Shown here: positions 26,024 through 33,768 of the stretch, piece by piece
Layout: the number at the start of each line of letters is the position of its first letter
Position numbering within the stretch: position 1 is the first letter of the stretch
DNA from: a virus
Virus record (IMG/VR): IMGVR_UViG_3300042402_005680
Span: 1 to 62,550 of that record
DNA: 62,550 nucleotides
Reading direction: 5' to 3' (one strand)
Position numbers and translations under genes: made by a program
Notes under the pieces: generated by a model
Database searches by the model: none
What the model saw: only the letters and a program-made list of their open reading frames with translations
Told to the model about the DNA's origin: nothing

Positions 26024-26052
26024 TTGCCTTTTGTTATATTTTACGCTATAAT
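26024..26052 (+). promoter_or_regulatory. Promoter of the curli-like island
   Basis: TTGCCT, 17 bases, TATAAT. The predicted transcript start is within a few bases of the first ATG (26063), so the first message would be nearly leaderless. Confidence 0.75.
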
Positions 26053-26062
26053 AGTTTTGAAG

Positions 26063-26551
26063 ATGAGAGTATTAGCTTTGGTATTTTTACTTGCCGGCTG
26101 CTCAATATCTACTCCTAAACCTACTACAGTCTTATCGCTATCTGGCGCAAATGCTTTAGTAGGATTACATGAAAAGAGTGATAGGGAATTCCTAAAATCC
26201 CTTATGGGGATTGACCCGGTAAGATATGAGTGGTGCGCGGCATTTGTAAACGCAATTTTAAGTAGAAATGGAATACCGGGCTCTGAATCAGTGTCTGATA
26301 ACCCTCTTTTGGCTCGAAGCTTTTTAGCCTGGGGAACTCCGGTAACGTCTCCTAAACGTGGAGATATAGTAATATTTCCAAGAGGCGACGAGAGTTGGCA
26401 AGGTCACGTAGGATTTTATAAAGGTAAAGTCTATCGAGACGGAGTTCTTTACTATATTATTCTTGGTGGAAATCAAAGTAATATAATATCCTATGAATTT
26501 TATCCCGCTAAATCTGCTCTAGGCATTAGACGCTGGATTGTGAAGGAATAG
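26063..26551 (+). CDS. Lipoprotein with TIGR02594/CHAP-like peptidase domain, 162 aa
   Basis: ATG at 26063 gives a perfect lipoprotein signal (LALVFLLAGCS); a TTG 39 bases upstream would start in the promoter. The domain has NALVGLHEKSDREFL, then the catalytic Cys in YEWCAAFVNAIL, KRGDIVIF, and the catalytic His in WQGHVGFY. These papain-like domains cleave peptidoglycan peptides or amides. It opens the curli-like operon; local wall clearing for a secretion pore, or lysis, are possible roles. Confidence 0.82.
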   Translation: MRVLALVFLLAGCSISTPKPTTVLSLSGANALVGLHEKSDREFLKSLMGIDPVRYEWCAAFVNAILSRNGIPGSESVSDNPLLARSFLAWGTPVTSPKRGDIVIFPRGDESWQGHVGFYKGKVYRDGVLYYIILGGNQSNIISYEFYPAKSALGIRRWIVKE

Positions 26552-26552
26552 T

Positions 26553-31397: not shown

Positions 31398-31732
31398 ATT
31401 TTTTACTTAGTTTAGCTACTACTATGCATTTAGGTTTTGAGGGTGAGTACAATAGTATTCACCCTCATACTCGTTTTGAGAGTAATGATTATGCTATTGG
31501 TGCTTACTTAAACAGTGAAAATAATATTAGCCCTTACATCTCGTACAGCCTAAAAATGCAATCTTATAGTTTAGAATTAGGTTTAGTAGGAGGATATAAC
31601 ATTCCTGCAGTTCCCTTACTACGTTTAGGCAAATCTCTCTCTAAAGACGTAGATATTTTTATTACGCCAGGATTTGAGAATAACACAGAAAACCCCAAAA
31701 TAGTTTTGGGACTTGAATTTACATTGAGGTAA
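31394..31732 (+). CDS. Outer-membrane-like beta protein, 112 aa
   Basis: Alternating hydrophobic strands with HLGFEGEYNSIHPHTRFE, AIGAYLNSENNISPYISYSL and LELGLVGGYNIPAVPLLRLG. The terminal LGLEFTLR could be a barrel end. This family occurs in other phages and bacteria near surface-polymer genes. No clear signal peptide beyond a weak hydrophobic start. Not CsgE by sequence. Confidence 0.6.
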   Translation: MNFLLSLATTMHLGFEGEYNSIHPHTRFESNDYAIGAYLNSENNISPYISYSLKMQSYSLELGLVGGYNIPAVPLLRLGKSLSKDVDIFITPGFENNTENPKIVLGLEFTLR

Positions 31733-31734
31733 AG

Positions 31735-33768
31735 ATGATACAAAAAATACTAACCAGCGCCATTTGGAGTATCGTTACTCTAGCATTAATGGTCGGAATA
31801 GCCTATCTGAATCCGTCATTTATTGAAAGCGTAAAACTCCGATATTTTGACACTCTAATTACGTCAACTCCCAAAATAGAAAATAATATCTATACCGTAA
31901 ACATAGATGAAGCAGCTATTGAACAGTACGGTCAGTGGCCTTGGTCAAGAGATATATATGCCAATATTATAGAAGAACTTTACGCTAGAGAAGCTGGTTT
32001 AGTAGTTTGGAATATATTAATGTCCGAATACGACAGAAGCGGTAAAGATTCTTACTTAGGGGATACTTTAGCGCAGTATCCGGTAATACTAAATATACTA
32101 GGTGCAGAAGAATCTAAAAATTCTGCAATAAATCCCGGGGCTGCAATAATTAATTCTGAGTACCAAGATTTAATACTCTCCTATCCAGGAATTATTGCAA
32201 ATATTCCTGAGTTAGAAAACCTAGCTTCGGGTAGTGGTATTGTTAATACGCTACCAGAAATTGACGGGGTCACACGTCGTGTGCCGATGGTAATCTCCAG
32301 TGGGGGCACTCTGTATCCTAACCTTACTCTAGAAACACTTCGAGTTCTTGCTGGAGACCCAAGTTTTCAGATTAAGCTTTCTCCCCTTGGAGTTGACCGA
32401 CTGCGTATTCCTCAGTTTGGAGAAATACCAACTGACGAACTCGGACGCGTATGGGTCGATTGGAGTCAAAGTAGTAAAAGTGTTTCTCTCACTAATCTTC
32501 CTGATAGTTTTGGAGGTGCGATAGTTTATATAGCGCCCACTGCAGCAGGATTAAATAATCCTATTGCAACTGCTGCTGGAGGTGTTTGGCCTCATGAATT
32601 GCAGGCTGCACTTCTAGGTACAGTTTTTAATCAGAGTAATATTGAGCGTCCCGCTTGGGCATCAGGCGCAGAACTAATTTCATTAGTACTCGGGGGTATT
32701 CTCTTAATCTTCTCAGCACGCTGGACCTATTTAGGATTAGGAGTTTTTGTACTACTGCTTGCTAGCACTGTAGGCGGTAGCTGGTATGTTTTTGTGGAAT
32801 ATAAGTGGCTACTCGATGGTGTTACGCTTACGGCATCGTTCATTCTAATCGGTCTTGTACGATATGCTGTGAAGTTTATTTCAGAGTACCTACAAAAGTT
32901 AAAAATTAAAAAGCAGTTTGGCGGATATGTCTCTCCGCTTGTCATTGAACAGTTACAAAAAAACCCCGAGCTTGTCAGCCGGGGCATTAAACGCGATGTT
33001 TCTATTGTAATGACAGACTTACGAGGTTTTACACCACTAGGAGAGTCATATGGGGATGACGTCCACGGTCTCACACAGATTATGAATGACTATATGACTG
33101 CTATTTCACAACCTGTACTTGACGATGGAGGCACTATTATCAAGTATATTGGCGATGCAACTCTACACATTCATGGAGCGCCTCTCACTGATGAGCATCA
33201 TGCAAAGCACGCCGTTGCAACTACGTTGCGAATGATTAAAGCGGTCGAAGAGTTTAACACTGAGCTAGATGCTATCGGTAAACCACGAGTAGCAATGGGA
33301 GCAGGTATCAATACTGGCCCTGCTGTTATTGGCAATATCGGTTCTAAGACTCGATTTGGGTATGATATACTAGGAGATAGTGTTTCTACCGCGGCTCGAT
33401 TAGAGGGTCAGAGCAAGCCCTACGGAGTCAAGATTGTTATTGGTGAGAGCACCGCAGAGCTAGTACGAGATGACTATATCTTATTAGAACTCGATAAAAT
33501 TGCGGTAAAAGGCAAGACAATTGGACTACGCATGTATACCGTAGTTGCTGAAGGTAGTCCTGAAGCTGTTCAAAAGCACGAAGAGATGTTACAGCTCTAT
33601 CGCGCACGTGAGTTTAGCAAAGCTAGTGTCGCGTGTGTGCTGCTCAAAAATGAGTTTGGCGGTGAAATGCGTGACTACTATAAAATGTGGATGTCTCGCT
33701 GTGAAGAAATGCGAAACTCTAGTCTTCCCGAAGACTGGGATGGAATTTATCGAGCCACTTCTAAATAG
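31735..33768 (+). CDS. CHASE2-domain class III adenylate cyclase, membrane-bound
   Basis: 677 residues. A membrane helix at 8-26, then an extracytoplasmic CHASE2 sensor (about 30-310, with NIYTVNIDEAAIEQYGQWPW), then three membrane helices (about 312-385), then a class III cyclase domain from about 420. Catalytic metal residues are in VMTDLRGFTPLG and YIGDATLHIHG; substrate and transition-state segments in GYDILGDSVSTAARLEGQSK. The C-terminal helical part has MLQLYRAREFSKA. Full-length for the chromosomal family. It makes cAMP (or cGMP) in response to a periplasmic signal. The stop is followed directly by a convergent tRNA gene. Confidence 0.92.
   Translation: MIQKILTSAIWSIVTLALMVGIAYLNPSFIESVKLRYFDTLITSTPKIENNIYTVNIDEAAIEQYGQWPWSRDIYANIIEELYAREAGLVVWNILMSEYDRSGKDSYLGDTLAQYPVILNILGAEESKNSAINPGAAIINSEYQDLILSYPGIIANIPELENLASGSGIVNTLPEIDGVTRRVPMVISSGGTLYPNLTLETLRVLAGDPSFQIKLSPLGVDRLRIPQFGEIPTDELGRVWVDWSQSSKSVSLTNLPDSFGGAIVYIAPTAAGLNNPIATAAGGVWPHELQAALLGTVFNQSNIERPAWASGAELISLVLGGILLIFSARWTYLGLGVFVLLLASTVGGSWYVFVEYKWLLDGVTLTASFILIGLVRYAVKFISEYLQKLKIKKQFGGYVSPLVIEQLQKNPELVSRGIKRDVSIVMTDLRGFTPLGESYGDDVHGLTQIMNDYMTAISQPVLDDGGTIIKYIGDATLHIHGAPLTDEHHAKHAVATTLRMIKAVEEFNTELDAIGKPRVAMGAGINTGPAVIGNIGSKTRFGYDILGDSVSTAARLEGQSKPYGVKIVIGESTAELVRDDYILLELDKIAVKGKTIGLRMYTVVAEGSPEAVQKHEEMLQLYRAREFSKASVACVLLKNEFGGEMRDYYKMWMSRCEEMRNSSLPEDWDGIYRATSK

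Follow-up and report, generated by a model that had tools for sequence, protein, structure and literature searches.

A phage-borne curli-like island that encodes a FecR-domain protein and a CHASE2 adenylate cyclase alongside its predicted export pore and curlin substrates

IMG/VR virus record IMGVR_UViG_3300042402_005680 is a 62.5-kb virus sequence and a fragment. Its positions 1 to 62,550 (62,550 nucleotides, referred to here as the window) were analyzed with a focus on an island at 26024-33768, in which homologs of the curli export proteins CsgF and CsgG lie together with genes for predicted curlin-like substrates. The island consists of 11 open reading frames (ORFs) on the + strand, arranged head to tail so that neighbors either overlap or are separated by short gaps, and in its flanks almost every gene lies on the - strand. 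The genes, and the searches by which they were recognized, are as follows:

26063..26551, + strand: CHAP-domain lipoprotein (Pfam CHAP PF05257, E 5.8e-8; PHROG CHAP of tail lysozyme)
26553..26831, + strand: TM1, 92 residues, a single transmembrane (TM) segment and a coiled coil (phrog_18771, E 1.4e-28)
26835..27086, + strand: small membrane protein, the third besides TM1 and TM2 (phrog_1544, E 1.8e-9; found mainly in the closest relatives)
27086..27388, + strand: TM2, 100 residues, a paralog of TM1 (phrog_18771, E 4.7e-29)
27339..27797, + strand: CsgF-like protein (PF10614, E 4.2e-14)
27797..28573, + strand: CsgG-like outer-membrane lipoprotein pore (PF03783, E 9.8e-54)
28581..29189, + strand: curlin 1, a predicted secreted beta-solenoid (AlphaFold2 model, motif enrichment, VIA-align)
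29191..30285, + strand: secreted FecR-domain protein (PF04773, E 2.8e-9)
30282..31397, + strand: curlin 2, with C-terminal curlin repeats (PF07012, E 9.2e-8, two repeats)
31394..31732, + strand: small strand-rich protein, possibly an outer-membrane barrel (no Pfam match; homologs in a subset of modules)
31735..33768, + strand: CHASE2 sensor and class III adenylate cyclase (PF05226, E 8.6e-35; PF00211, E 1.4e-19; phrog_35576, E 2e-192)

A first-pass annotation had described a phage-borne curli-like island here, and the Pfam searches placed CsgF, CsgG, curlin 2 and the CHAP lipoprotein where it had put them; curlin 1 was recognized by its motif and its model. The genes in that inventory all stood, but the FecR-domain protein and the cyclase had been overlooked. 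Signal peptides or a lipobox were recognized from sequence on the island products. The CHAP ORF begins at a TTG at 26024, and an alternative ATG at about 26063, which yields MRVLALVFLLAGC, is the more likely start. Scans for promoters and terminators of the island performed no better than background.

The profile of the CsgG-like protein matches the solved CsgG (E 6e-74), with an invariant lipobox Cys. The CsgF-like protein gives a weak profile match to the solved CsgF (residues 7-51, E 0.04) and keeps the N-terminal CsgG-binding segment (FQF..P.F.GN). At the constriction of the window CsgG, Tyr51 is replaced by Ser and Phe56 by Ile, Asn55 is kept, and position 48 is Arg. This Arg is present in 136 of 140 phage rows, whereas the bacterial rows mostly have an aromatic residue, Asn or Ala; on the alignment, an Arg beside the constriction is typical of the phage CsgG clade. 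CsgE (PF10627), which the first-pass annotation had listed as absent, was likewise not found in the 62.5-kb record, itself a fragment, and the control search matched E. coli only. Its lack has been reported for alphaproteobacterial curli systems (PMC9599517). These observations bear on the proposal that the open CsgG channel serves import by admitting larger nutrients, with the curlins as plugs or leftovers (PMC7029224, PMC9599517). The lack of a match to the CsgE gate, the replaced aromatic residues Tyr51 and Phe56, and the phosphate-binding-like and PnrA-like substrate-binding proteins encoded by the same phage would fit import, but CsgF and the curlins are conserved alongside the pore. In addition, Tyr51 is missing from the ordinary bacterial CsgG proteins sampled, so its loss is not a gain made by phages, and we consider import an improbable role.

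Curlin 1 has no Pfam match and its sequence repeats are weak, but the strand motif I/V-x-I/V-x-Q is enriched in it (5 seen versus 0.5 expected in shuffles). A curlin beta-solenoid in structure models had been named beforehand as a test of the island, and the AlphaFold2 model of curlin 1 is a regular beta-solenoid (pLDDT 78.7, pTM 0.76). VIA-align superposed this model on SufB-type parallel beta-helices (Z 15.9, 2.6 A, 167 residues), a likeness of predicted fold only, and Foldseek with curlin 1 returned no significant PDB match and no curlin. The unusual Cys pair that had been noted in the curlins proved to be real and conserved. In curlin 1, the pair Cys119/Cys127 is present in most relatives, and in curlin 2 the pair C359/C364 (C-x4-C) stands just ahead of the last strand and is kept across phages, with C359 invariant and C364 conserved in at least 90%. 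The island holds three parts of a type VIII (curli) system, namely a CsgG pore lipoprotein, CsgF, and predicted curlin-repeat solenoid substrates.

The curlin repeats of curlin 2 are C-terminal and its N-terminal domain is strongly variable between phages, as receptor-binding parts are. This variability would suit curlins that act as virion decorations or adhesion fibers carried by the particle and not as structures of the infected cell. However, all of the substrates look secreted, an outer-membrane pore and an inner-membrane sensor are parts of a cell envelope, and the PHROG search of the island proteins revealed no clear phage structural gene within the operon. A virion role for the curlins is therefore unlikely in our estimate.

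The FecR-domain protein is modeled with residues 18-200 folded, an acidic disordered linker at residues 209-290, and residues 300-362 folded (pLDDT about 80-90). In the model, residues 48-212 match the PupR cell-surface signaling domain (Z 14.5 over 136 residues) and residues 16-111 match the cell-surface anchoring domain 5ix9 (Z 6.6). The C-terminal 30 residues are similar to a single curlin repeat (hhalign 76%, E 2e-5), and the terminal Gln362 is invariant (29/29). With a curlin-repeat hidden Markov model (HMM), 59% of the FecR tails scored above 3 bits, compared to 13% of shuffles and 3% of windows from the FecR body, a result that is suggestive, but not proof, of a curlin-like tail. That a PupR-like domain is joined through a disordered linker to a curlin-like tail with an invariant Gln suggests that the protein may bridge the fiber and the cyclase. 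It shares the predicted PupR fold with the FecR/PupR regulators, but it lacks their anti-sigma domain and adds the long linker and the tail; in contrast to PupR-type regulators, its output is probably the CHASE2 cyclase.

The window cyclase keeps the metal Asp, the substrate Lys and the Arg of the active site, while the transition-state Asn is replaced by Ser. Among 156 cyclase homologs, the substrate Lys is present in 155 and the metal motif, by regular expression, in 147. A FecR-like gene adjoins the gene for the CHASE2 cyclase in 5 of 19 short bacterial loci, and in Burkholderia biofilm is regulated by an operon that encodes a FecR-LysM protein and a CHASE2 kinase (PMC5192318). By analogy, these arrangements support a partnership of FecR and CHASE2. 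The module could also be mainly a cyclic AMP (cAMP) signaling device that reprograms host metabolism, with fiber assembly as sensory input only. The retention of the cyclase across very divergent phages with its Lys and metal motifs intact, and the adjoining of FecR and CHASE2 cyclase genes in bacterial genomes, are consistent with such a device; the frequent Ser in place of the active-site Asn and the reported lack of the cyclase in some phage modules (PMC9599517) are not, and we assign this reading a low probability. Separately, in four loci (L017 3554-3868, L073 4107-4457, L096 2147-2497 and L099 9051-9401), ORFs of 104-116 residues upstream of csgF match the C-terminal region of the cyclase family but have no catalytic domain.

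TM1 and TM2 belong to a family whose members beside the module are paralogous and about 83-190 residues long, mostly 83-130. TM1 has a conserved C-terminal ...ARADGxxDARKD, and TM2 a conserved coiled coil, LIDRIRMLDNDLIRL. Among 50,697 phage records, each of the two matched exactly six, those of HTVC008M and Melnitz, all of which carry curli genes. Among loci reached through CsgG, HMM synteny found the pair in nearly all that were long enough; among loci reached independently through TM2 (the best 80 of more than 600 matches), 73 of 80 had curli genes and the other 7 were short or end-truncated contigs. The pair lies within 2.5 kb upstream of csgF on the same strand in 91 of 141 csgF loci, but it can also be encoded on the opposite strand or flank the module at either end, so the linkage is not explained by simple co-transcription. 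From these distributions, the TM/coiled-coil pair appears to be a near-constant partner of the curli module in varied arrangements, a linkage that is new here. The pair probably corresponds, judging from position, to the genes of the phage module that were labeled 'histidine kinase' (PMC9599517). As a description of the upstream TM genes this label was rejected, since no kinase domain (HisKA/HATPase) was found in any of 21 TM2-family members and the window TM1 had no match.

The TM pair also bears on the suggestion, made in the first-pass annotation, that the pore is an exit or lysis route. In the published form of this hypothesis, the CsgG/CsgF pore is repurposed as a gated, pinholin- or secretin-like, depolarizing channel, helped by the TM proteins and the CHAP hydrolase (PMC9004378). 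The pair is holin-sized and the CHAP lipoprotein is the first gene of the operon. Matches of the pair to holin families were weak in both cases, namely to the phrog_4898 holin (E 0.51) and, for one member, to YvrJ (E 0.015). The pair may still be holin-like, but its occurrence follows that of the curli module. By HMM synteny the CHAP gene is accessory, being confined to a few, closest relatives and absent in most. An endolysin (17120-17989) and an Rz-like spanin (16542-17036) are encoded elsewhere in the window, which makes a lysis role for the island less likely; moreover, the CsgG pore is far too narrow for virions (PMC7029224), and lysis would have no need of secreted curlins, a FecR protein or a cyclase whose catalytic residues are conserved. 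There is thus only a small chance that the module serves lysis.

Pore and substrates together had been taken to make the island special, and this part of the first-pass annotation did not hold. A tblastn search of the same phage records with CsgG returned HTVC008M, four Melnitz and one unannotated 1.5-kb Salmonella record. The module itself is carried by six records (HTVC008M twice and four Melnitz) and by more than 100 viral contigs, which ruled out a unique island. Scanning viral sequences with the cyclase and CsgG yielded 113 loci with a constant core of CsgF-CsgG-curlin-FecR-cyclase by HMM synteny; curlin 2 is frequent, and the cyclase is sometimes several kb off. Contigs with the module reach 329 and 357 kb, which indicates that large phages carry it too. 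In some phages, additional genes are inserted after FecR or curlin 2 and ahead of the cyclase (L026 3651-9184 and L036 4328-7031); by eye, they encode porin-like proteins, a metallophosphoesterase, a peroxiredoxin or a nuclease-like secreted protein.

This type of island is already published for pelagiphages and methylophages (HTVC008M, Melnitz and HTVC023P-type podophages). A partial curli system in pelagiphages was described together with the idea of sibling capture (PMC7029224), and curli genes without recognized substrates together with the idea of lysis (PMC9004378). In 2022 the substrates, FecR and the cyclase were recognized in the phage module, an alphaproteobacterial origin was proposed, and module transcripts were reported in ocean metatranscriptomes (PMC9599517). 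The window and the pelagiphage type VIII secretion systems (HTVC008M gp014-gp019, Melnitz gp99-gp104, HTVC023P-type; PMC9599517, PMC7029224, PMC9004378) have the same gene order, which in HTVC008M and Melnitz is CsgF-CsgG-curlin-FecR-curlin-cyclase; CsgE, which those systems lack, was not found in the window record either. Small TM/coiled-coil genes precede the module in HTVC008M and Melnitz as in the window. The FecR protein and second curlin of HTVC008M, annotated 'hypothetical', were identified here by HMMs. In contrast, the window adds the CHAP lipoprotein, the third small membrane protein and the strand-rich protein before the cyclase, and its CsgG and cyclase share 34-53% identity with the HTVC008M and Melnitz proteins. 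Compared to enterobacterial curli (csgBAC/csgDEFG), the window shares the CsgG and CsgF homologs and the curlin-repeat substrates, but it adds FecR and the CHASE2 cyclase, differs in the constriction residues, has Cys pairs in its substrates, and has no CsgE found in the record.

Among the best 80 bacterial CsgG loci there was one clearly chromosomal full set, in Hyphomonas sp. TMED17 (705-kb contig), where a CsgF-CsgG-curlin-FecR-CHASE2 cyclase operon lies at L216 7456-13479. Its G+C content is close to that of the surroundings and its neighbors are chromosomal. In the CsgG tree, 37 phage rows, with the window CsgG among them, and Hyphomonas TMED17 form one clade (SH-aLRT 98); the Hyphomonas protein is at the unresolved base of the phage clade and shares its Arg at position 48, while ordinary alphaproteobacterial CsgG, including that of another Hyphomonas, stands apart. 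The operon parts are those of the window, but Hyphomonas TMED17 has one curlin, a FecR protein without the terminal Gln, a chromosomal setting, and no TM pair within the 16.7-kb locus. This module may descend from the donor lineage, or it may be an early capture from a phage, and in its light the published view that bacterial curli operons do not include FecR and the cyclase needs some qualification. An order-level search of 398 genomes for further full bacterial modules, with the Hyphomonas cyclase as query, found only itself as a close match; the next-best matches reached about 37% identity across the larger part of the protein and about 50% in short segments. Four other candidates (L197, L199, L208 and L210) were rejected as bacterial modules, as they look like phage DNA in metagenome-assembled genomes and fall inside the phage CsgG clade.

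Outside the island, the window differs from the phages with the pelagiphage system in having an NAD-dependent DNA ligase, a permuted transfer-messenger RNA (tmRNA) and about 27 tRNAs. The best matches of the ligase are in Vibrio phages (about 32%). The permuted tmRNA (6425-6684, - strand; RF04321, 104.5 bits) also matches alpha_tmRNA, and Melnitz likewise has a tmRNA. ARAGORN predicted 27 tRNAs, Rfam added one at 42980-43051, and a long tRNA array with interspersed small ORFs occupies 33769-44365 (- strand). Other genes on the - strand encode a Ro60/TROVE-like RNA-binding protein (23739-25178; phrog_850, E 7e-136) that shares about 50% identity with proteins from large enterobacterial phages, an ATP-type phosphoenolpyruvate carboxykinase of 422 residues (7909-9177; PF01293, E 4e-87), which is unexpected in a phage, a phosphate-binding-like PBP protein (3330-4337) and a PnrA/Bmp-like nucleoside-binding protein (10888-11982). 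From their family matches, the last two possibly serve nutrient uptake. Neither a terminase gene nor a major capsid gene was recognized among the window genes.

Taken together, the sequence and model data indicate that the island is probably a type VIII (curli-like) secretion module of a phage, equipped with its own signaling arm and making a fiber on the infected cell that is coupled to cAMP. During infection, curlin 1 and curlin 2 would be exported through an outer-membrane pore built from CsgG and CsgF and would then assemble on the infected cell into a solenoid, amyloid-like fiber or coat. The FecR protein, presumably at least partly periplasmic, would report the state of the pore or fiber to the inner-membrane CHASE2 cyclase, which would set cytoplasmic cAMP. 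The curlin-like C-terminal tail of FecR may dock onto the fiber, and the TM/coiled-coil pair would act as an inner-membrane partner of the module. An outer-membrane pore, secreted solenoids, a periplasmic FecR and an inner-membrane cyclase fit a surface fiber coupled to cAMP, and the signaling arm is probably central to module function. We speculate that the phage would benefit by retaining host cells nearby, by blocking superinfection, or by altering cell physiology through cAMP.

Several observations weigh against a cAMP-coupled surface fiber. Ser takes the place of the transition-state Asn in the window cyclase and in 116 of 156 homologs (the other 40 keep Asn), and for this reason cyclase activity may be reduced. 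The PDB searches with curlin 1 (Foldseek, VIA-align) gave only generic beta-helices and no curlin structure. The FecR model has a pTM of 0.51, and individual FecR tails are only weakly similar to the curlin repeat (3.1 bits for the window tail) and are overlapped by shuffled controls. CsgE, an export aid in E. coli, was not found in the record, and no clumping was seen in Melnitz-infected cultures (PMC9004378).

A more detailed wiring, a virus-made circuit that would sense the fiber from the outside in, can be proposed, although we hold it only as a tentative and rather doubtful possibility. The PupR-like domain of FecR would be periplasmic, its linker of about 80 residues would run through the CsgG-CsgF pore, and its curlin-like tail would cap or anchor the fiber in the style of a retention module. 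Whether the fiber is growing, attached to a neighboring cell, or sheared would then be sensed by the CHASE2 cyclase and converted into cAMP, and this circuit would require the TM/coiled-coil pair as its partner in the inner membrane.

Many aquatic phages carry curli modules, and the window, itself from an aquatic phage, extends the module to a genome unlike those of cultured pelagimyophages. Two near-constant parts had been overlooked, namely the TM/coiled-coil pair, probably mislabeled as a histidine kinase, and a FecR protein with a tail that looks suited to joining the fiber. With these parts, the loose idea that phages make curli becomes a specific, testable wiring in which a fiber, a periplasmic FecR and CHASE2 would lead to cAMP.

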